From NCBI GenBank assembly GCA_021773435.1, contig JAJFKC010000020.1:124001-188000 (forward strand): DNA of 64,000 nt, read 5' to 3'. Shown one piece after another: positions 11,488-29,600 of the stretch (the stretch's first letter is position 1; every line of letters begins with the position of its first letter). This DNA is from Porticoccaceae bacterium (lineage in GTDB: Bacteria; Pseudomonadota; Gammaproteobacteria; Pseudomonadales; Porticoccaceae). A program made the position numbers and the translations under genes. The notes under the pieces are model-generated. The model was given only the letters and a program-made list of their open reading frames with translations, did not search any database and was not told where the DNA came from.

Positions 11488-12786
11488 TTATCCCAGCCCG
11501 GCCTTCCTGAGACCACTGGTAAACAATTGCCAATCGACATCGTCTTTGTAGGGCCAGCGTCGCATAGTGTCGATGCTGATTTCAGAATGCTTTTCTTTAA
11601 GTGATTCAATTGTCCTTTGGGCCACTTCGTCGTTTCCTGCCAGCCCAGCGGCAGCGGCCAGTACGATCAGGGTTGGGGTGACATTGCCAAACCGGTGGAG
11701 TGCCCGCTCAGCCCATTCCGTTGCCGTATCAAAGTTACCCAGCTTTAACTCACCTGCAGCAATCGCCTGCATCGTCTGACAGGTCGACACATCGGATTCA
11801 CCGATAGTAAGTTTCTTTTTGCATAACTCTATCCCTTTTGTGGTTTCCCCTCCAAATACTTCCAGTTGACCAAGGTACAATTGGCCGAGGCCGTAAAAAG
11901 GGTTGATTTCTATGCTGCGTTGGAAGTTACGGTTCGCGCCCGCGTGGTCGAGCCGACCGTACAATAAAAAATAACCCATTACCCAGTACCCAAAGTCGCT
12001 GTTTCTATTTAGATCAAGGGATTTCTGAATAATATTTTCAACCTTTGTTAGTTGTTCCTGATCTAGAAGGCGGCATCCAATCAATAATTCACGTTGTAAA
12101 AAAAAACCGAACATTCCCTGCAACATAGCGTGTTCGGGTTGCTCAGCTAGCAGTTCATCCACAATTACAGTGCCGCTGTCCCAGACAGCCTCATCGACAC
12201 TACATATAACCACGGTCAGCTTAGACAGGTTGGTTTCGAAATCACCGTCGTTGCGCAGTGCAAATCGCTTGCGCAGCTCAATTCTTAAAGCGCTTGATAA
12301 TTGTGAGTTGAGTTGGTCGATGGTTTCAAGTCGATCATCTATGGTGGCTTCAAACCGGGCTGACCAAAAATCCTCATTGTTGTGTTGGTCCTGTAAACGT
12401 AGGGTCACTCGACAGCGGGATTCGTTGAGCACGACATTTGCCCTGGCAATATAATCAGCAAGCGCCACATCTGTGACCAATACACTACCGGTTAAGTTGG
12501 CCATTGCCCGTCGCACTTCTTCGTTTATTTGGTGAGCAAAACTACTTTCGTCGTTGGAGCTGCCCGTGAACGGCTCGATATAAATAGTTGGCTTGCCCGC
12601 TTGTCTGGCGTTACTCGCACTTGCCACGCCCTGCTTGGTTTTTTTCTTTGACTTAAAAAATAAGGATTTAAAGTTGCCGCCGAGAGGTGACAGGAGCAAG
12701 GCGATAATCGCGATAAATGCGGCAACGCCGGATAAAACGGACTCGTTCTTATCGAACCAGTTGATGATTAATGTTATCCAGTCCAT
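11488..12786 (-). CDS. membrane-anchored FlgO-like/TPR protein, paralogue 3 of 3
   Basis: Last member (in transcription order) of three adjacent paralogues. A single membrane helix at about residues 17–36 (ESVLSGVAAFIAIIALLLS) follows a short amphipathic start, MDWITLIINWF. After a basic linker comes a domain starting PTIYIEPFTGSS and ending in LETIDQLNSQLSSAL, like the TolB-N/FlgO-type domain fused to class III adenylate cyclases and winged-helix regulators. TPR-like helices follow (DHAGANRNFQRSIEINPFYGLG), ending in RRWPYKDDVDWQLFTSGLRKAGL. That end also matches cyclase-associated TPR proteins, but no cyclase or DNA-binding domain is present. Role unknown; a scaffold or sensor is a guess. 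Convergent with the peroxiredoxin gene. Confidence 0.75.
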   Translation of the reverse strand: MDWITLIINWFDKNESVLSGVAAFIAIIALLLSPLGGNFKSLFFKSKKKTKQGVASASNARQAGKPTIYIEPFTGSSNDESSFAHQINEEVRRAMANLTGSVLVTDVALADYIARANVVLNESRCRVTLRLQDQHNNEDFWSARFEATIDDRLETIDQLNSQLSSALRIELRKRFALRNDGDFETNLSKLTVVICSVDEAVWDSGTVIVDELLAEQPEHAMLQGMFGFFLQRELLIGCRLLDQEQLTKVENIIQKSLDLNRNSDFGYWVMGYFLLYGRLDHAGANRNFQRSIEINPFYGLGQLYLGQLEVFGGETTKGIELCKKKLTIGESDVSTCQTMQAIAAGELKLGNFDTATEWAERALHRFGNVTPTLIVLAAAAGLAGNDEVAQRTIESLKEKHSEISIDTMRRWPYKDDVDWQLFTSGLRKAGLG

Positions 12787-12847
12787 CTAATAGTCACTAT
12801 ATATGGCCGGCAATTTAGTAGTTTATCAAAGTATATTGTTGGCAACT

Positions 12848-14149
12848 CTAGCTCAGCTCAGCTTTTCTGAGTCCACTAACAAATAATTCCCAGTCGGCAT
12901 CGTCCTTGTAGGGCCAGCGTCTCATAGTATCGATGCTGATTTCCGGGTGCTTTTCTTTTAATGAATTGACGGTCCGGGTAGCCACTATTCCATCGTCCGC
13001 AAGGCCTGCGGCAGCGGCGAGGATAATCAGCGATGGTGTTGTTTCAACCCCCGCATGACGGATGGCTTGCTCGGCCCAGTTCACAGCCTGGTCAAAGTTG
13101 CCGAGCTTTAACTCACCTGCAGCGACACTACGCATCGACTGCTCGTCTCGCTGGAACGATTGCGTATTTGCGTTAGCATCTTTGCATAATTCAAGCCCTT
13201 TCGCCGTATCGCCGCAGAATATATCCATAATGGCGAGACCTTTTAGCCCGACGCCATAAAGGGGGTTAATATCGAGGCTGCGGGAATAGCTGGTTCTGGC
13301 CCCGGCAAAATCCAGTTGGCCGTAGAATAAATAACGCCCCAGCATAGTGTGAGCAAAATCGCTGCGGTTGTTCAGTGCAACGGCTTTCCGCAACGCCCGC
13401 TCGGCTTTTTCACTGTCTTCGTCACCCAGTGGGCCATAGCCATGGGCAATTTCGTGCATCAGTAGGCCACCGTAAATTGCCTGCAACATTGAGTTTTCGG
13501 ACTGTTCATCGTGCCATTTTTCGGCAGATACGCGTGCCTCAGCCCATACCGCCGGATCGAGGCTTATCATGGCAAAACCCATACGACCTAGCTCGACCTC
13601 AAAACTGTCATCCTCACGATTGGTGAATCGTATCGATACTTCATACCTTATTGAGCTTGATAGCTTGGCGGTCAGTTGGTCGATGGCCTCGAATCGGTTC
13701 TCGATATCCGCCTCGAATCGCCCCGACCAGAAATCCTCGTTGTTGTCACGATCCTGCAAGCGCAGAGTGACTCGACTGCGTGAACCGGTGAGCTGAACAT
13801 TGATATAGGCAATATAGTCGGCGAGCACGACATCATTGACCAGGATACTGCCGGTCAAGTTGGTTACTGCGCGACGGACATCTTCGTTGAGCTCGAGTCC
13901 AAAACTAAGTGCTTCGTCGGAATTGCCGGTAAACGGCTCTATATAGATGGCTGGTTTACTTTCCTGGCGGATTTTATTTGTCGGAGGTGGGTTGGCTTCG
14001 CTGGAGTAGATAGATTTTGCCAGGAATATTTTGAAGTAGCGGCCAAATGACGTTAATAACAGACCAGCAATGACCACAAAGGCAGCAATGCCCGATAATA
14101 CCGATTCGTTTTCGCCGAACCAGTTTGTGATGAAGGTTATCCAGTCCAT
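12848..14149 (-). CDS. membrane-anchored FlgO-like/TPR protein, paralogue 2 of 3
   Basis: Middle copy of the tandem triplet. Same order of parts: MDWITFITNWFGENESVLSG with a membrane helix (AAFVVIAGLLLTSFG), a diverged linker, a FlgO-like domain from PAIYIEPFTGNS to IDQLTAKLSSSI, then TPR-like repeats (LDFAGARTSYSRSLDINPLYG) and the signature RRWPYKDDADWELFVSGLRKAEL. The termini are almost identical to the other copies, while the linker and the region around residues 190–260 differ most, as expected if membrane and C-terminal contacts are constrained. It is 61 bp from the downstream copy and 99 bp from the upstream one, so a shared transcript is likely. Confidence 0.75.
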   Translation of the reverse strand: MDWITFITNWFGENESVLSGIAAFVVIAGLLLTSFGRYFKIFLAKSIYSSEANPPPTNKIRQESKPAIYIEPFTGNSDEALSFGLELNEDVRRAVTNLTGSILVNDVVLADYIAYINVQLTGSRSRVTLRLQDRDNNEDFWSGRFEADIENRFEAIDQLTAKLSSSIRYEVSIRFTNREDDSFEVELGRMGFAMISLDPAVWAEARVSAEKWHDEQSENSMLQAIYGGLLMHEIAHGYGPLGDEDSEKAERALRKAVALNNRSDFAHTMLGRYLFYGQLDFAGARTSYSRSLDINPLYGVGLKGLAIMDIFCGDTAKGLELCKDANANTQSFQRDEQSMRSVAAGELKLGNFDQAVNWAEQAIRHAGVETTPSLIILAAAAGLADDGIVATRTVNSLKEKHPEISIDTMRRWPYKDDADWELFVSGLRKAELS

Positions 14150-14248
14150 CTGGTAATGCCTGTCCGTTGCTAACTGTTTATCGCATTTTCTTCAGGTTAA
14201 AGTTCTTCTATAAAATTAGGGTTCTTCTTTAGGCCAGTTTAGCCTAAT

Positions 14249-15565
14249 TTATTCCAGCCCAGCTTTTCTAAGGCCGCTGACAAATAGCTCCCAGTCTGCG
14301 TCGTCTTTATAGGGCCAACGGCGCATGGCTTCGATGCTGATGTCCGGGTGTTTTTCTCTTAATGAATTGACAGCCTGAGAGGCAACTTGATCGTTCCCCG
14401 CCAGGCCAGCGGCGGCAGCGAGTACGATAAGTGTCTGAGTAACTTCGCCGTATTTATGAATGGCGTCTTCGGCCATTTCAAGGGCTGCGTCGTAGTTGCC
14501 CAAACGAATTTCACCGGCAGCAATGGCTTCATGATTGCGGCCATTTTTTAGTATGGGCGATTTTAGATCTAGCGTGCATAGGTCACTACCTTTTCCCGCA
14601 TCCCCACTGTATATCTCGATCTCGCCCAGACCCGCTTCACCTAAGTGATAGCGCGGCGTGATCTCAAGACTGCGCAAAAAACTGTGTTTCGCGCCAGCAA
14701 AATCACCTTTAGCGTAGAGCAAATAAGTCCCCAGGCACACATGTGCAAAATCGCTGCGATCATTTAAGGCGACGGCTTTTCGAGCGGCCAGTTCAGCTTT
14801 GTCTATTTGCTCATTGTTGAGAGGGTGATAATCAAATCTGATTGTTGCGACCAGCAAGCGACTATAGATGGCTTGAAACATCGAATCGTTGGCATGTTCC
14901 TCAAGCGCATCCTCAGCGAGGGCCAGCGCTTCTATGAAAAGGTTTTCATCTGAACGGGCTATGCTCCCACCCATCCGGATCAACAGTGACTGAGTATCAT
15001 CGCCTTGTTGCGTTAATAGATGAGTGGCTATGCCATACCTCATCGCCATGGAGAGCTGCGCGCTCAGCTTGTCGATGGCTTCCAGTCGATTATCAATATT
15101 TGCTTCATAACGTTCTGACTGAAAATCCTCGTTATTGTGGACGTTCTGCATAAGCACCGTGGCCCGACAGTGTGTGCCGGTGAGCAGCACATTGACGCGG
15201 GCGATATAGCTGGCACGTTTGATATCTGAAACCAGCGTGCTACCCGTAAAATTAGCCACCGCCCGGCGCACTTCTTCATAGAGTTCGTGGGCGAGTGTGC
15301 TGGCTGCTTCGGAGCTGCCGGTAAATGGCTCGATATAAACAGTCGGTTTGCCCGCTGGTCTGCTTGCACCATCATGAGAAGGCAAGGGTTTAGCTTCAGG
15401 GTTTTGTTTGGCCCCAGTTTTGGACTTGGCTCCGGGAAAAAGCGCTTTGATATTACCGCCCAGGGGCGACAGCAGTATGCCGACAATTGCTACCAGGGCC
15501 GCTATGCCCGATAACACCGATTCGTTTTCTCTAAACCAGTTGGCGGTTAATGTTATCCAGTCCAT
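14249..15565 (-). CDS. membrane-anchored FlgO-like/TPR protein, paralogue 1 of 3
   Basis: First copy of the triplet. MDWITLTANWFRENESVLSG leads into a membrane helix (AALVAIVGILLSPLGG) and a Lys/Pro-rich linker. The FlgO-like domain runs from PTVYIEPFTGSS to IDKLSAQLSMAM, followed by TPR-like units (GDFAGAKHSFLRSLEITPRYHLG) and the shared end RRWPYKDDADWELFVSGLRKAGL. Its LSPLGGNIKALF stretch matches paralogue 3 more closely than paralogue 2. Upstream (15566–15656) is a short gap beyond the end of the Rieske oxygenase gene, which has the same orientation, so the triplet could be read through from it. No function is recognised. Confidence 0.75.
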   Translation of the reverse strand: MDWITLTANWFRENESVLSGIAALVAIVGILLSPLGGNIKALFPGAKSKTGAKQNPEAKPLPSHDGASRPAGKPTVYIEPFTGSSEAASTLAHELYEEVRRAVANFTGSTLVSDIKRASYIARVNVLLTGTHCRATVLMQNVHNNEDFQSERYEANIDNRLEAIDKLSAQLSMAMRYGIATHLLTQQGDDTQSLLIRMGGSIARSDENLFIEALALAEDALEEHANDSMFQAIYSRLLVATIRFDYHPLNNEQIDKAELAARKAVALNDRSDFAHVCLGTYLLYAKGDFAGAKHSFLRSLEITPRYHLGEAGLGEIEIYSGDAGKGSDLCTLDLKSPILKNGRNHEAIAAGEIRLGNYDAALEMAEDAIHKYGEVTQTLIVLAAAAGLAGNDQVASQAVNSLREKHPDISIEAMRRWPYKDDADWELFVSGLRKAGLE

Positions 15566-23655: not shown

Positions 23656-23706
23656 TTATATGGTGGGCCCAGAAGGACTTGAACCTTCGACCAATCGATT
23701 ATGAGT
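23656..23706. repeat. left attachment site (51-bp direct repeat, copy 1)
   Basis: Identical over 51 bases to 29519–29569. Positions 23661–23706 are the 3' 46 bases of tRNA-Ile2(CAU), from the anticodon to CCA, on the minus strand. The sequence beyond (TGCAATAAGC) no longer matches the tRNA. This is the tRNA remnant left on the distal side by integration. Confidence 0.92.
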
Positions 23707-23837
23707 TGCAATAAGCCCCCTTTCCCCAATTTTTCCCAACACCGCTTTTACATTGATAAACATATATAAAACAAATAGATACCGTTTTATCTTGTCTTCT
23801 TTAGATTTCCCTAGTACCCTCATTTTTCCTGCCAAGA

Positions 23838-23856
23838 GTAGCACATGGGTAGCACA
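23838..23856. promoter_or_regulatory. candidate integrase arm-type site, left
   Basis: GTAGCACATGGGTAGCACA is a pair of GTAGCACA half-sites 11 bp apart. The same 19 bases with one mismatch occur at 29460–29478, near the other end. It lies just upstream of the integrase ATG, so binding could also repress int. Assignment is inferred from symmetric placement. Confidence 0.55.
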
Positions 23857-23868
23857 GAAGGATCTGGG

Positions 23869-25200
23869 ATGGAGACAAAATTCCGTTTTAACAAGAAAAC
23901 CATCGATCAAATTCCGATCCCGGCGCAACGTTTACGCCTCTACGATACCGGCGTAGCCGGTCTGATCCTGGAATTATCGCCAGCAGGCAGCAAAACTTTT
24001 CGCGTCTACCGAAAAATTAAGGGCCAGCAAGTACCGGTGACCGTGACCCTGGGTAAGTATCCAGCGCTGTCGATTGAGAACGCCCGCCGACAGGCTATCG
24101 AGAAATTGGAGGTGCTTAGTTGCGGGGTGAACCCCAATGATCAGCAACGTTCGAAAAAACTAGCTGAGATTTCTTTGGATGAGGTCTACCGGGACTACCT
24201 CGATGCGAAAAGACTCACTGACAGTACCCGCACTGGTTACAAGCGTATTGTCGAAACGTACCTCAAAGCCTACCGATTTAAACCCCTGGGTAAATTGACC
24301 GAGGAGGCGGTCAAAAAAGAGCACCGCCGGATTACCCAGGCGAGCCCCGCCCAGGCTGATTTAGTTATGCGCTTCCTACGCGCCTTATTCAACTTTGCTC
24401 ACTACGAATACCGAGGCCTCGATAATGCTTTTTTGTTTGAACACAATCCTGTGCATATCCTGAGTCATCAGAACTTATGGAACAAAGTTCCTCGCAAACA
24501 CACCCGACTGACAAAAGGGCAGTTGCCGGATTGGTTTGATGGCCTCGAAACGGTTCGTCAGCAGGGCAATCCGTTTTCTATTTCGGTTTGCGATTTGGTG
24601 GAAACTGCTCTGTTAACCGGCTTGCGTCGTAACGAGCTGATTGGACTCACCTGGAATTGCGTGAATCTTAAGGAGCATACTTTTTACATCGATACGGCCA
24701 AAAACGGCGATCCGCTGGAATTACCGATAAGCGACCATTTATTTGCTTTATTCGTGCGCCGGAAGGCTCTGCGTAACGAGAGCGCCTATGTATTTGATGC
24801 GCCCAATCGTCACGGTAAGATTGTTGAGCCGAAAAAGATCCTTGCCGAGATCGTGAAGCAGGCGAATGTTACCTTTACTTTGCATGACCTACGAAGAACT
24901 TACACCACCACCGCTGAAGCCCTTAATGTGGGTACCTATACGATTAAGCGATTGCTGAACCATCGAACACGCCGTGACGACGTCACCGCAGGGTATACGG
25001 TGTTAACGCCGGAAGAGCTGAGGGAACCGGCGCAACGAATCGAGGACGCCATCCTGAGGCAGGCAGGAATTAAAACCCCGGAAGCTGGGTTGGATAAAAC
25101 GTTGACCTCCTTGCTGGAGAAACTCTCAGAAAATGATAAACGTGAACTCATTTTTGATTTGTCAGAAAAAAGACATGGAGCGGTTGAGCATGGGCGATGA
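23869..25200 (+). CDS. int: P4-type tyrosine integrase
   Basis: Site-specific recombinase of the DUF4102/P4 group, which usually targets tRNA 3' ends. The N-terminal DUF4102 domain is at about 1–90 (AGLILELSPAGSKTFRVYRK, VTLGKYPALSIENARRQA), the core-binding domain at about 100–190, and the catalytic domain has Arg in TGLRRNELIGL, His-x-x-Arg in LHDLRRTYTT, His in LLNHRTRR and the nucleophile Tyr in TAGYTVLTPEEL. I start at METKFRF, where AAGGA is well spaced, rather than at an ATG 24 bases upstream. It reads inward from the left att copy, as expected. Its 3' end overlaps the next gene by 11 bases. Confidence 0.93.
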   Translation: METKFRFNKKTIDQIPIPAQRLRLYDTGVAGLILELSPAGSKTFRVYRKIKGQQVPVTVTLGKYPALSIENARRQAIEKLEVLSCGVNPNDQQRSKKLAEISLDEVYRDYLDAKRLTDSTRTGYKRIVETYLKAYRFKPLGKLTEEAVKKEHRRITQASPAQADLVMRFLRALFNFAHYEYRGLDNAFLFEHNPVHILSHQNLWNKVPRKHTRLTKGQLPDWFDGLETVRQQGNPFSISVCDLVETALLTGLRRNELIGLTWNCVNLKEHTFYIDTAKNGDPLELPISDHLFALFVRRKALRNESAYVFDAPNRHGKIVEPKKILAEIVKQANVTFTLHDLRRTYTTTAEALNVGTYTIKRLLNHRTRRDDVTAGYTVLTPEELREPAQRIEDAILRQAGIKTPEAGLDKTLTSLLEKLSENDKRELIFDLSEKRHGAVEHGR

Positions 25201-25927
25201 CGAGGAAAGTTGGGAGGAAGAATTCTATAGGGAGGAAACACTTGAAGAGGAGGAAGCAAGGTCAGATTTTTTTGCTGAAATGCACCAGAAAGAGGAAGCC
25301 CGACAATATGCTATTGAGCATAAAACTCTAGTATACGATCTTAGTTATCGGAAGCGATTCTATGGGCGGTTTATCCATCTCGATACCTGGCTATTATTCA
25401 ACGAAGCAGTGCCAATATATTTCTGCTATGAGCCCCAATATTGGATATCTGGTTATTGCGCCTATATAGAAGAAAGCATCCAGCTGTTGCGGCAAATTGC
25501 AGCGGGTGCTGGCTACACCTTAAATGTATTAAATCCCAGTGCCGAACGAATCGAATGGCGCGTTAAACCCAAAGAGTTCATCAAATGGGTGGCTGACAAA
25601 GATTTCGATACTCCTGTCGAATTGGCCGATATTTTTGGGTTAGATGCAGAGGGTAAGTCTCAGCAAAAGATTGGTGATTACAAGACTCACGGCAATACAG
25701 AACATCATGCACAGCGTAGAGAAAAAATCCTCGCGGCAGCTTTGGCGGTGTTATCAGCCGTCCCAGACAAATGTCAAAACAAAGGTAAAATATCATCCAG
25801 TGCCATCGCCGATCAAATTGAGTTATTTGGCGACCATGTTTACGGCCAGTATGAAGATCCTCCTCTTTCACGTAGAACAACCATAGACACTATTAGTAAG
25901 GCGTTAAAGCTAATTCCAGAAAAGTAA
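25190..25927 (+). CDS. element-encoded protein of unknown function
   Basis: No family recognised. The 245-aa product starts at ATG 25190, nine bases after GGAG, inside the integrase 3' end, so translation is probably coupled. The first 40 residues are extremely acidic (repeated Glu in EESWEEEFYREETLEEEEA). The middle is aromatic-rich (YDLSYRKRFYGRFIHLDTWLLF; IYFCYEPQYWISGYCAYIEES). The C-terminal half, about 165–245 (TEHHAQRREKILAAALAVLSAVPDKC…ISSSAIADQIE…STIDTISKALKLI), has the helical look of element-encoded proteins that act beside integrases. No membrane segment. The role is unknown. Confidence 0.65.
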   Translation: MGDDEESWEEEFYREETLEEEEARSDFFAEMHQKEEARQYAIEHKTLVYDLSYRKRFYGRFIHLDTWLLFNEAVPIYFCYEPQYWISGYCAYIEESIQLLRQIAAGAGYTLNVLNPSAERIEWRVKPKEFIKWVADKDFDTPVELADIFGLDAEGKSQQKIGDYKTHGNTEHHAQRREKILAAALAVLSAVPDKCQNKGKISSSAIADQIELFGDHVYGQYEDPPLSRRTTIDTISKALKLIPEK

Positions 25928-26052
25928 ATTGAGTAAAGCAAACAACAATAAAATAAAAATACTCAGTACGCACTAAACAGATAGTCTGCACATAGCTTCC
26001 TATCTATTCGCTAGGATTGTTTCCGACCCTTACTGAACGGAAATAAAGCCTA

Positions 26053-26274
26053 ATGAATGTAGATCAATCAGATCGACTCTTAACCGCCAGCCAGGCCGGT
26101 GAATTCCTCGGTGTCAGCGAACAGACACTAGCTATTTGGCGTTGTAATAAGCGTTATGACCTTAAATACGTAAAAATTGGAAGGAAGGTTAGATATCGTT
26201 TTCGTGACCTAATGATGTTTGTCGAATCAAGAACTGTTGGTGCTGAATCAACTGGTTCTGAGGAGACCTCCTAA
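26053..26274 (+). CDS. AlpA/excisionase-like helix-turn-helix protein
   Basis: A 73-aa DNA-binding protein. LLTASQAGEFLGVSEQTLAIWR is the MerR-like winged-helix of the HTH_17 excisionase family, followed by YVKIGRKVRYRFRDLMMFVESR, the wing and its second helix. In P4-like elements such proteins activate int expression or direct excision. It heads a three-gene run in which the stop of each gene overlaps the start of the next, so it is likely cotranscribed with rep. The C-terminal ten residues are Ser/Thr/Glu-rich. Confidence 0.85.
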   Translation: MNVDQSDRLLTASQAGEFLGVSEQTLAIWRCNKRYDLKYVKIGRKVRYRFRDLMMFVESRTVGAESTGSEETS

Positions 26275-26618
26275 TGAAAAAGAACCTTCTCGATTATGTG
26301 ACTGCCTGCGAGGGGCAAGCCATTGGCCGACCCGCAGCAGCAGACACATTATCCATATTGGTAATGTGGGTAACGGTGACAGGTAATTATTTGATAGCAC
26401 CTGTGGCAATCATCGAAGCGGTAGTCCATATGGCATCTTGTTCGTTAACGGTGGTTTATGATTTGTTTTATACGAATGACTCATTAGATTTAGCGCATCC
26501 TAAGCAGACTAAATTACACCCCGCAAGCTTGAAACGGAATAAACCTATAGCGTTTATACAAAACTCACCCAGCCGATCCCATTGTAAAAACAAGCGTATT
26601 AGAAGCATGTTGCGATGA
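26274..26618 (+). CDS. small hydrophobic protein of unknown function
   Basis: 114 aa, not recognised. Its ATG shares one base with the preceding stop (TAATG) and its TGA overlaps the rep ATG (ATGA), so it is translationally coupled on both sides. This is the main reason to accept it as real. A hydrophobic stretch at about residues 24–64 (LSILVMWVTVTGNYLIAPVA then VVHMASCSLTVVYDLF) could span the membrane once or twice. The C-terminal third is basic (LKRNKPIAF, CKNKRIRSMLR). The position between a regulator and Rep would suit a copy-control or packaging accessory, but that is a guess. Confidence 0.55.
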   Translation: MKKNLLDYVTACEGQAIGRPAAADTLSILVMWVTVTGNYLIAPVAIIEAVVHMASCSLTVVYDLFYTNDSLDLAHPKQTKLHPASLKRNKPIAFIQNSPSRSHCKNKRIRSMLR

Positions 26619-28177
26619 GCATCTATAAAACCCACCCCGATTTAAATGGGGAATCCGTTAAGGAGTCTCCTGAGGCTCCTTTTGTTTATGCCGACGGTTT
26701 GACCCTGGAGCAAGTGAGAAATCCTGAACCTGTCATCACCAATTTTGGCGTTGCTGTGCCCGGCCAGCCTTTGAGCGGTAGCGAAAAGCATAGGCTAGTC
26801 AAGGCAGCCAAAAGTCCGACACCGCCTGTGAAGCCAGATAACTGGGGACAATTGCCGGATACCTGCCCGGAACCCGTATATATTGATCCGCTGCCCGTAC
26901 CGGTTACCCCAGAGGGGGCGCCCGGTGCTTATACAGTCATCCAGTACCGCGAATGGGCCGATGAATACCGTGTACGCACGCGAGTGGAAACAACAAGCGG
27001 TACGATGCCCCCTGGACACTTTGGCCCGAGGATTACAGCGATGTTATCGCAACGTGCTGTCCGCAAGATCGCAGAGAGTTGTGCCTATGTCGCTAAGCAG
27101 CATGATGGCTACTCGACGTTTTTGACCTTGACCTTCACCCCTGATCAACGATTTTGTTTGCAAGCGAGCGGCAAATATTGCGACCTGACGACACGTAAGG
27201 TTACAAAGCCAACCTCCATTCAAAAGGAGGTCAGCCGGTTTTGTGATGGTCTTAGTAAAATGTGGCGGCGCGGTTGGCAGGCTGAGTTTACGATCAACGG
27301 CAGGCGTATCGCTTGCGTTGATGAACATGGCGTGACAATGGGCGAGGAAGCCCGAGGTGATACCCCCCTGCTCTATTGTTGGGTTGCTGAGGTGCCGGAT
27401 AATGACCAAGGCGAACCCAATCCACATGTGCATATGATGATCCGCTGCCGTGTCCCCAAGCCGCTATTTGCCTGCTGGGCTAAACGCTTTGAGGAGCTAT
27501 GGGGCAATGGCCTGGCTCATTTAGAAAAAATCAAAGATGGCGACGCGGCGGCAGCTTATATGATGAAAGCGGCTGGCTATCTTTGTAAAGCCCAGGGTAA
27601 GACCGATCAAGGCACGATACGGGGCAACCGTTATGGCATGAGTGCGGAGGCACGAGCACCCGACTGGGTAACAATTGAAGAAAGTCAGTTGCATGCCATG
27701 GGGCTGCTTATTGCTGATGTCCATGACTACATTACGACCCGGTATGCCAGTGAGTATCAATTACGAAAGACTTTGAAGCAAAACCTCGACAACGCTCCGA
27801 AAGGATCGAAGGCGCGTTTTATTATTGGCAAGAAACTCGAAAGTGTTCGGGCGATATTGGCCAAGGTTCCCATCGTAGCGAGCAAATATCAAGTCATACT
27901 AAAAGGCAGAGCGGCTTTTTATGAGTTTATGAATTGGGCTAAGTCACCGGGCCATTGGCGGGATTTTGTGTGTGACTGGTTACCGGAAAAGTGGCCTGGC
28001 GAAAATTGGCTACCCGGTAGCCGCCCCGATTGTCACTGGATGGCAGACTTTAAAAAGCGGCACTATCAACGTCGAGTTTTGCGTCATATGCCAAAAACCC
28101 TGTCTGATGAGGAATGGGGGCAAGCTGTTGATGAGTATGCTGAGTGGGCAGAAATGGACTTGGAATTCTGTCAATAA
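26615..28177 (+). CDS. rep: HUH-endonuclease rolling-circle replication initiator
   Basis: Predicted to nick one strand at the element's origin and stay covalently attached through tyrosine. Three motifs are in the expected order: motif 1 FLTLTF (169–174), the HUH metal site NPHVHMM (H271/H273) and motif 3 in AAAYMMKAAGYLCK (Y315, Y322). Two tyrosines seven residues apart are unusual for single-tyrosine plasmid Reps and recall the two-tyrosine phage initiators. The C-terminal 170 residues (FYEFMNWAKSPGHWRDF…) are element-specific. Length 520 aa is long for plasmid Reps and closer to those of integrative ssDNA-phage-like elements. Metal and tyrosine assignments are by motif only. Confidence 0.8.
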   Translation: MSIYKTHPDLNGESVKESPEAPFVYADGLTLEQVRNPEPVITNFGVAVPGQPLSGSEKHRLVKAAKSPTPPVKPDNWGQLPDTCPEPVYIDPLPVPVTPEGAPGAYTVIQYREWADEYRVRTRVETTSGTMPPGHFGPRITAMLSQRAVRKIAESCAYVAKQHDGYSTFLTLTFTPDQRFCLQASGKYCDLTTRKVTKPTSIQKEVSRFCDGLSKMWRRGWQAEFTINGRRIACVDEHGVTMGEEARGDTPLLYCWVAEVPDNDQGEPNPHVHMMIRCRVPKPLFACWAKRFEELWGNGLAHLEKIKDGDAAAAYMMKAAGYLCKAQGKTDQGTIRGNRYGMSAEARAPDWVTIEESQLHAMGLLIADVHDYITTRYASEYQLRKTLKQNLDNAPKGSKARFIIGKKLESVRAILAKVPIVASKYQVILKGRAAFYEFMNWAKSPGHWRDFVCDWLPEKWPGENWLPGSRPDCHWMADFKKRHYQRRVLRHMPKTLSDEEWGQAVDEYAEWAEMDLEFCQ

Positions 28178-28201
28178 CTGTACTCAGGAGCGATCCAACC
28201 G

Positions 28202-28990
28202 TTAAACCGCCAAACTATCTGCGGGACTCAGCACTCCCTTGCCACCTCGATTAATCACATGGGTATAAATTTCAGTCGTAGAAACGTCAGAATGACCCAA
28301 TAACTCCTGGATCGTGCGCAAATCATAACCAGATTCCAGCAGATGCGTGGCAAAACTGTGGCGAAAGCTGTGTGATCTCGCAGGTTTGTTAATACCTGCG
28401 CCCCGAACAGCTTGCCGAATCTTTTTGGCAAGTGCAGAGGCATGTAAATGATGCCTTCGTAAGATACCTGAACGGGGATCTTTGCCAATCTTGCTAGCTG
28501 GGAAAAGATATTGCCAGCCCAATTCCCTGGCTGCGTTAGGGAATTTCCTGCTCAACGCATCTGGAAGATAGACATCGCCATAACCCTCCTCCTTATCTTG
28601 GTCATGGAGTTTTTTTACTTTTTCAATTTGGCGCTTCAAGGATGGGATTAATCGCTGAGGTAACATCGTAGTTCGATCCTTACTACCCTTACCGCGATAA
28701 ACAAAAACATTATTGCTGCCAAAATCAACATCTTTGACACGCAAAGAAAGTAACTCTGCACTACGTATACCCGTCCCGTACATTAACCCAACCTGTAAAC
28801 GGTATGTGCCGTGTAAATGGCCCATAATTGCAGTTATTTCATCGCGACTATAGACCACCGGTAATCGCCTTGGCACATGCGCTAAGGAATAATCCAGTTC
28901 ACCTATTTCTAGACCCATATATCGCTTATAGAGATAAATCAGAGCATTTAGTGCAATGCGTTGCGTACTAATCGAACAATGGCGTTGAAC
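28202..28990 (-). pseudogene. integron-type integrase, 5'-truncated (intI-like)
   Basis: The 28202–28918 frame gives a full IntI catalytic domain: LPVVYSRDEI, YGTGIRSAELLSLRVKDVDF, GKGSKDRTTMLP, the IntI-specific insertion (LGWQYLFPASKIGKDPRSG then RRHHLH), HSFRHSFATHLL and the Tyr in TTEIYTHVINRGGKGVLSP. In-frame codons upstream of the first ATG still read like IntI (VQRHCSISTQRIALNALIYL), but similarity stops at the Val codon at 28988–28990 and a stop follows at 29045–29047. About 60 N-terminal residues of the core-binding domain are missing, so recombination activity is doubtful. It converges with rep, 24 bp away. Confidence 0.8.
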
Positions 28991-29146
28991 ACCAAACCGC
29001 CACTTCGTTCTGGTTTGTCGTCCCCTGCTGCAGGCGTTAAGTTTTCAAGTTACCCACAGAAAGTAGACACCCTATATAGTTTATTGGAGAGTCAATACAG
29101 GAAAGGCGAAACTGAAATTGTATTCATTAATGGTAAGGCAGACTAA
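28979..29146 (+). CDS. possible small protein, unrecognised
   Basis: A 55-codon frame (MALNTKPPLRSG…) running away from the truncated integrase. The second half (KVDTLYSLLESQYRKGETE) looks protein-like, but no ribosome-binding site precedes the ATG, and its first ten codons are antisense to intI sequence. It could be an accidental frame or the relic of a gene brought in when intI was truncated. Confidence 0.3.
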   Translation: MALNTKPPLRSGLSSPAAGVKFSSYPQKVDTLYSLLESQYRKGETEIVFINGKAD

Positions 29147-29180
29147 ATAACCGTCGAAGGCATTGACTATATCCCTTTGT

Positions 29181-29213
29181 CTAATAAGGCCTGGGCTTTC
29201 CAGGCCTTATTAG
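29181..29213. other. perfect 14-bp stem hairpin near the element's right end
   Basis: CTAATAAGGCCTGG (29181–29194), loop GCTTT, then its exact complement (29200–29213). No T-run follows on either strand, so it is not a classical terminator. In an element with a rolling-circle Rep, such a hairpin could be a single- or double-strand origin; it could also be a transcription stop for the small ORF 35 bp upstream. Confidence 0.75.
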
Positions 29214-29401
29214 CTAGCTTCCTCCTCTGATAACCTTCCTAGTCGCTAGCGTACCGTGCCTGTCGAGTATCTCTAGCAATCTTCTCCAGAAAGTAATTAC
29301 TTTTTGAAATCATAAATATGCATAGCCGCCTACATACAATGCTTTATGGGCATGGCTCATTGCAAGAAAAATAAAATACGACTGTAACTTGTTGTTTTTA
29401 T

Positions 29402-29450
29402 TGGTACCGGAATCGAACCGGCACGGTATTGCCACCGAGGGATTTTAAGT
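29402..29450 (-). pseudogene. tRNA 3'-half remnant, tRNA-Leu(UAA)-like
   Basis: The minus strand reads CTTAAAATCCC (anticodon loop with TAA and the 3' side of its stem), then a long variable arm TCGGTGGCAATACCG, a T arm GCCGGTTCGATTCCGG and TACCA. The order and the long variable arm identify a leucine-type tRNA. The acceptor-stem bases between T arm and CCA end are missing, and there is no 5' half, so it is not functional. It looks like an attachment-site relic from a different tRNA gene. Confidence 0.65.
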
Positions 29451-29459
29451 TATCCAAAA

Positions 29460-29478
29460 GTAGCACATTGGTAGCACA
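29460..29478. promoter_or_regulatory. candidate integrase arm-type site, right
   Basis: GTAGCACATTGGTAGCACA differs at one base from the left-end copy at 23838–23856 and lies 40 bp inside the right att repeat. The matched pair near both ends is what arm-type integrase sites look like. Binding is not shown. Confidence 0.55.
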
Positions 29479-29518
29479 AAGATTTAAGTGCAGTGATAAG
29501 TATGCATAACATATTGAT

Positions 29519-29569
29519 TTATATGGTGGGCCCAGAAGGACTTGAACCTTCGACCAATCGATTATGAGT
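29519..29569. repeat. right attachment site (51-bp direct repeat, copy 2)
   Basis: Identical to 23656–23706. It overlaps the 3' part of the intact tRNA-Ile2 gene, whose remaining 5' half continues to 29600. This marks the chromosomal side that kept the tRNA promoter and 5' end. Confidence 0.92.
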
Positions 29570-29600
29570 CGACTGCTCTAACCAACTGAGCTATGGGCCC
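29524..29600 (-). tRNA. tRNA-Ile2 (anticodon CAU, lysidine type)
   Basis: A 77-nt cloverleaf with encoded CCA: acceptor GGGCCCA/TGGGCCC, D arm GCTCAGTTGGTTAGAGC, anticodon stem GTCGA/TCGAT with loop CTCATAA, T arm GAAGG-TTCAAGT-CCTTC. The CAU anticodon would mean Met, but the anticodon-arm and variable region (GACTCATAATCG, TTGGTCG) match E. coli tRNA-Ile(CAU), whose C34 becomes lysidine via TilS, rather than elongator tRNA-Met. A TATAAC about 11 bases upstream may be the -10 of its promoter. The element's integration regenerated its 3' half. Confidence 0.92.

Follow-up and report, generated by a model that had tools for sequence, protein, structure and literature searches.

A probable satellite-like island without capsid genes, carrying a phage-type replication initiator, in a tRNA gene of a marine gammaproteobacterium

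A 5.9-kb element integrated in a tRNA gene of a marine gammaproteobacterium is probably a mobile, satellite-like chromosomal island devoid of capsid genes, for which excision, rolling-circle copying and carriage by a helper are proposed. The window analysed is a 64,000-nucleotide stretch of a Porticoccaceae genome, in which the unit between the terminal repeats of the element measures 5863 bp. Judging from its genes, the element can probably insert, excise and copy itself, and the sharing of its Rep and putative in-gene origin with tailless, filamentous and tailed phages suggests hitch-hiking on phages. An integrated element combining an integrase with a rolling-circle Rep had been proposed in the initial annotation and is supported by the features below.

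Boundaries, target site and genes

23656–23706, no strand: attL core, a displaced 3' tRNA fragment of 51 bp, perfect repeat of 29519–29569, single copy in relatives
23838–23855, plus strand: paired arm-type sites GTAGCAC...GTAGCAC at the left end, 11 nt apart; the right end has the same pair, as do the two ends of the related locus L056
23845–25200, plus strand: int, P4-type tyrosine recombinase (PF13356, E 5e-12; PF00589, E 9e-14)
25190–25927, plus strand: orf245, overlapping int by 11 nt, positional analogue of PICMI iolg (no family match; 34% identical homologue in locus L128)
26053–26274, plus strand: AlpA-like excisionase/regulator, 73 aa (PF12728, HTH_17, 37.5 bits, cut-off 27; phrog_66)
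26274–26618, plus strand: orf114, small hydrophobic protein by hydropathy, overlapping both neighbours (no family match)
26615–28177, plus strand: Rep, HUH replication initiator of NO16 type, 520 aa (phrog_38601, E 4e-48; invariant NPHVH; Foldseek matches to viral Reps)
26790–26821, plus strand: putative rolling-circle origin within rep, ATAGGCTAGTCAAGGCAGCCAAAAGTCCGACA (codon test; 146 loci, two reading frames)
28202–28918, minus strand: integron integrase, 5'-truncated pseudogene (TIGR02249, E 1e-97, positions 92–315 of 315)
29401–29450, plus strand: 3' half of a tRNA-Leu(UAA) that stops at the anticodon loop, probable fossil attachment core (98% over 44 nt to the tRNA-Leu of G000:C38; the segment is the repeat of L069)
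29460–29477, plus strand: paired arm-type sites at the right end, matching the left-end pair
29519–29569, no strand: attR core inside the tRNA gene, perfect 51-bp repeat
29524–29600, minus strand: intact CAU tRNA, probably tRNA-Ile2, the target gene (ARAGORN; Rfam RF00005, 75.8 bits)

Perfect 51-bp direct repeats, one of them in the 3' half of the tRNA, had been described before, and both have been recovered. The right copy comprises the 3' 46 nt of the tRNA up to the anticodon loop and 5 nt beyond, and a 32-bp core of the repeats occurs twice in the window and in none of 100 dinucleotide shuffles, with three mismatches allowed. The tRNA carries the ARAGORN label tRNA-Met; it is probably tRNA-Ile2, an assignment made by judgement rather than by computation. 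Repeats ending at the anticodon loop have also been found in the related elements L056, L057, L069 and L133. Short direct-repeat pairs, 11 nt apart, lie just inside each element end (GTCTAC-type pairs are visible in L057 and L069) and are probably the arm sites of the integrase; since the left pair overlaps the first ATG of int, the real start of this gene is probably at 23869. The tRNA-Leu(UAA) 3' half, adjoining the right arm sites, would be left over from another insertion in tRNA-Leu, either earlier or neighbouring. Two minor signals occur in the same region, namely a perfect 14-bp inverted repeat with a 5-nt loop in the cargo end (29181–29213) and a probably spurious match of the Rfam Plastid-ycf2 model, below the gathering score, on the antisense strand of the tRNA (29526–29600, plus strand).

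Seven relatives of the host (G003, of the same genus, and G006, G008, G009, G011, G012 and G014, of the same family) have a CAU tRNA, 93–97% identical, adjoining rpoD, with one repeat copy (91–96% identical) and no int, Rep or capsid match beside it. Past the tRNA the flanking sequences have diverged too far for alignment, so that the comparison is site-level rather than base-exact. The initial annotation had named two observations that would speak against integration, both 51-bp copies in relatives lacking the element and single-copy core genes at this place. The relatives hold one copy, and Rep matches occur in just 11 of 391 genomes of the host order, none of them another sampled genome of the host family. 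At the rpoD site of G001 and G005 the CAU tRNA is a different one. In G004 (same genus, other species; L235 2852–2949), a partial second tRNA 3' end is followed by an element-like right end with arm sites, at which the contig ends, indicating that a related element apparently is or was at that tRNA. As a separate observation, a 7.2-kb stretch near rpoD in G017 (L238 1742–8922) holds four CAU tRNA copies, two of them full and two partial, with no int or Rep, and these may reflect old insertions.

The genes int, orf245, AlpA-like, orf114 and rep are all co-directional, the last three overlapping by a few nucleotides. Matches to both integrase families bear out the assignment of int as P4-type. 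The label of AlpA-like regulator is retained in part, with the HTH_17 match and a phrog_66 annotation of 'excisionase and transcriptional regulator' on its side, but no match to the AlpA family PF05930. Two genes had been left unrecognised: orf245 indeed has no family match, but a clear homologue has been found in one other genome (L128), together with a short match in L056, while for orf114 no homologue has been found. The predicted structure of orf245 was uninformative (mean pLDDT 41), and neither the AlpA-like protein nor orf114 is homologous to the small proteins of NO16 and PE004. Family searches of the scanned ORFs detected no capsid, packaging, relaxase or coupling gene, in agreement with the earlier description; the tailless-phage major capsid protein (MCP) is absent by profiles that find it in 60 loci, and neither Zot nor a partition or mobilisation gene has been found in the element. 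Promoter and terminator scans gave results at chance level.

Four features had gone unmentioned in the initial annotation: the paired arm-type sites, the tRNA-Leu fragment, the origin-like block in rep and the integron integrase remnant. Upstream of this last gene a short in-frame stretch of homology is present with no start codon, for which reason it is regarded as a pseudogene. Two other long integron-integrase-like matches occur in the same genome, on C40 (71%, one stop) and C16 (48%), the former being the interrupted copy at G000:C40:80759–81460, to which the integron integrase of the element is 71% identical. No defence-type cargo such as Drt2, Gabija or a retron has been seen in the window copy. 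Taking into account the decay of the cargo end, evident from the truncated intI, the window copy might be inactive.

The replication initiator and a conserved block within its gene

The 520-aa protein had been described as an HUH initiator, and the phrog_38601 match, the invariant NPHVH motif, the invariant tyrosines Y315 and Y322 and the predicted fold all agree with this assignment; the PF23343 score lies just under its cut-off. The fold matches Reps in a viral structure library (Foldseek), with no match in the PDB at E<=0.001. The features of the NO16-type family, an HUH motif, a Tyr motif and a frozen block within the gene, are all present. Rep is single copy in its own genome. Single-sequence searches of genome and viral contigs returned no matches, so that an alignment was needed, and the alignment-based scan yielded 56 named loci and the 80 best virome loci.

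Members of the family have been found in 27 phage records, all of Vibrio, and in one record of a plasmid collection (72,556 records), a 2-Mb Vibrio replicon. By profile searches, 60 of the studied loci have the tailless-phage capsid protein and 6 have the inovirus protein Zot; in the remainder, some long virome contigs may be P2-like. The P2-like Peduoviridae phage ValB1MD-2 also carries a Rep of this family. The Rep and putative origin module is common to NO16-type tailless phages, inoviruses and one P2-like phage, not to plasmids. The P12 protein of PM2 was considered as a relative and rejected, being of a different family by sequence; in its motifs it resembles the PF05840 gpA-type HUH Rep of L128 and L133. 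One locus, L061, on a contig labelled as a Lentisphaerae MAG, is a tailless phage whose MCP is divided between the two ends of the contig; it is probably the circular genome of a phage and perhaps misbinned.

A quick tree of 73 rows, including five full-length island Reps and with SH-aLRT support only, places the island Reps in at least three places and, even with the count restricted to starred branches, requires three or more changes. The Reps of the window and L057 have the Zhongshania inovirus and tailless prophages of Spongiibacter type as neighbours, that of L056 groups with a tailless phage, and those of L066 and L069 fall among tailless phages. This scatter suggests that islands and phages have exchanged the Rep module repeatedly.

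A codon test on six Reps singled out a block of 12 codons in which 124 of 130 codon pairs are identical where 42 would be expected (z 15.3, the runner-up block reaching 3.7). Its 32-nt core occurs once per rep gene in 146 loci, which are not independent, the virome contigs being redundant, and its synonymous sites are frozen. In the 87 distinct strings, TAGGCT, GTC and GTC(C/G)GACA are almost invariant. Translation passes through the block in two frames, +1 in 117 Reps (RLVxxxKSPT) and 0 in 29, including NO16 (LGLSKGAKVRH), and conservation across both shows that selection acts on the DNA rather than on the protein. Ten of 391 genomes, all Rep carriers, contain the pattern, none contains the reversed control, and orphan origins lacking a rep gene have been found in none of the 391; the exact pattern in viral contigs retrieved two contigs, both already known as tailless. 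A pairwise test against NO16 is weak (26/32 versus a shuffled maximum of 21–23, and the best 32-mer of PE004 lies elsewhere), and the case for the block is built on the many-sequence comparison instead.

Strong comparative evidence argues for the block as the putative double-strand origin, located within rep. That it is some other signal in the DNA, such as a site for a regulator or for packaging, seems distinctly unlikely. PM2 leaves some room for this reading, as the cleavage site annotated there, for a Rep of another family, differs in sequence. Against it, the block is found only inside rep, one copy per gene, it accompanies the Rep family in islands and in three kinds of phage, and origins inside the initiator gene are already known in the HUH Rep superfamily. 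With this block, the NO16-type Rep family gains a specific origin candidate open to testing, as well as a sequence handle for locating such elements, which virus databases leave unflagged.

Related islands and known systems

The arrangement int, (overlapping ORF), AlpA, (small ORF), HUH Rep and cargo, set in a tRNA gene, is repeated in at least seven further elements that lack capsid genes:

L056, the same as L070: Chromatocurvus halotolerans DSM 23344, 8.57 kb, CAU tRNA, 47-bp repeats
L057: gammaproteobacterial MAG, tRNA-Phe, 48-bp repeats
L069: Pseudohongiella MAG, tRNA-Leu UAA, 54-bp repeats
L133: same family as the host, tRNA-Leu CAA, 58-bp repeats, PF05840 gpA-type HUH Rep
L128: partial member, tRNA-Thr, same layout, PF05840 gpA-type HUH Rep
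L066 and L080: partial members

The next ORF overlaps int by 4 nt in L056, L057 and L069, compared with 11 nt in the window; in L057 and L069 it is of a second type, mutually related. The window integrase is 59% identical to that of L056, and the island integrases form two groups about 35–39% identical to each other. Four related islands carry defence-type cargo, consisting of Drt2 (E 8e-196), Gabija (GajA 3e-219, GajB 5e-185), retron I-A with PtuA/PtuB (RT_I-A 7e-135, PtuA 1e-157) and a C5 methylase with HNH. None of the best 80 Rep-bearing virome contigs has the island form, and no published description of the group has been found in the literature searched, where journal coverage is incomplete and novelty accordingly unproven. 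These elements point to a group of minimal islands of marine gammaproteobacteria with anti-phage cargo and a replication module borrowed from phages of different realms. Because Chromatocurvus halotolerans DSM 23344, which carries one member, is a deposited strain, laboratory tests of excision and mobility are possible.

The closest parallel in function is PICMI115 of Vibrio chagasii, an experimentally proven satellite that is transduced and in which int, iolg and alpA excise the element (PMC10803314). PICMI elements share with the window element a size of about 6 kb, the series int, int-overlapping ORF, alpA, small ORF and replication gene, the lack of capsid and packaging genes, marine gammaproteobacterial hosts, defence cargo and a rolling-circle-like replication, the last being predicted for the window element (PMC10803314). 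The 11-nt overlap of orf245 with int likewise corresponds to a gene found in 21 of 35 PICMI subfamilies. On the other hand, PICMI elements integrate at fis and have co-localised int, alpA and a putative primase (prim), whereas the window element lies in the CAU tRNA gene next to rpoD and combines int and the AlpA-like gene with an HUH Rep holding a putative in-gene origin; induction and transduction by a phage is a further PICMI feature, and the host of the window element is not a Vibrio. The best reading is a satellite-like island that functions in the manner of a PICMI yet falls outside that class, two defining features being absent.

The jumbo-phage satellites I23, I44 and I55 of Pseudomonas resemble it in tyrosine integrase, AlpA, defence genes, RNA-gene target and lack of transfer genes, and an inovirus Gp2-like gene is listed beside their alpA; they differ in being larger, in tmRNA, with another gene set and a 14-bp repeat (PMC12595487). 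P4-like satellites share a P4-type integrase, an AlpA-type regulator, defence cargo and the lack of capsid genes, but the element is without Psu, Sid, delta, epsilon and alpha primase (PMC8628076): Psu, delta, epsilon and alpha gave no Pfam match in the six main ORFs, and the absence of Sid, which has no Pfam profile, is judged from the lack of further ORFs. NO16-like temperate tailless phages (Asemoviridae proposal) share the Rep family, the frozen block in rep and two small ORFs upstream of it, but have a double-jelly-roll capsid protein and a packaging ATPase, with NO16 integrating at dif-like sites (PMC9966536). The inovirus of Zhongshania sp. BJYM1 (L059, 9965–17326, tRNA-Phe) has a Rep about 54% identical, of the tailless-phage family, a perfect match to the block and a tRNA-gene site, but carries Zot and coat-type genes and has its integrase at the opposite end. 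Neither the tailless-phage pair of double-jelly-roll MCP and packaging ATPase nor the inovirus Zot/pI is present in the element. It is neither P4-like nor a complete tailless or filamentous prophage. Charybdis elements (PMC12324425) were also considered and rejected, being unrelated, with archaeal hosts and no hallmark genes.

Proposed life cycle and alternative explanations

In the proposed cycle, Int would recombine the anticodon-loop core of the tRNA, leaving the tRNA intact, as the repeats suggest. By analogy with PICMI115 genetics, the AlpA-like protein, probably with orf245, would trigger excision. The circle would then be copied by rolling-circle replication, with the HUH Rep nicking the putative origin in its own gene. 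Given that no capsid, packaging, relaxase or coupling gene is present, a helper phage would most likely take the DNA to new cells. Neither Zot nor one tested terminase family has been found in the element's own genome, which fits an infecting rather than a resident helper and proves nothing; the tailless-phage capsid had no match in 112 genomes of the family, in a search that had no positive control. Phage satellites in the cited literature use tailed helpers. A tentative idea, with the odds against it, is that the islands are satellites whose helpers are non-tailed phages, either tailless or filamentous, the shared Rep and origin allowing the islands to be amplified and packaged like the circular or single-stranded genome of the helper.

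The initial annotation had left the choice between satellite and integrative plasmid. The satellite is favoured because the Rep family is found in 27 phage records versus one plasmid record and the gene order parallels that of PICMI115. An autonomous integrating replicon, excising and replicating by rolling circle with no helper phage, is unlikely; int, excisionase, Rep and origin, all of them seen, would suffice for it, but the Rep is not of plasmid type, the related elements carry anti-phage cargo and the element lacks any detected partition or mobilisation gene. Still less probable is a remnant of a tailless NO16-like prophage that has lost its capsid genes. The Rep and origin are of tailless-phage type, with the closest tailless-phage Reps 55–58% identical, but several elements bounded by repeats, at various tRNA genes, have the same layout without capsid genes, the island Reps are scattered on the tree, the island int and AlpA differ from those of the compared tailless prophages, and no tailless prophage has been seen with the int-orf245-AlpA-Rep order plus capsid genes. 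Movement by conjugation, with the HUH Rep doubling as relaxase, draws on the chemistry common to HUH Reps and relaxases, but is very improbable, as the scanned ORFs match no relaxase or coupling family and the relatives of Rep reside in phages.

Elsewhere in the window, at 11488–15565, three related genes (432–438 aa) lie in tandem.
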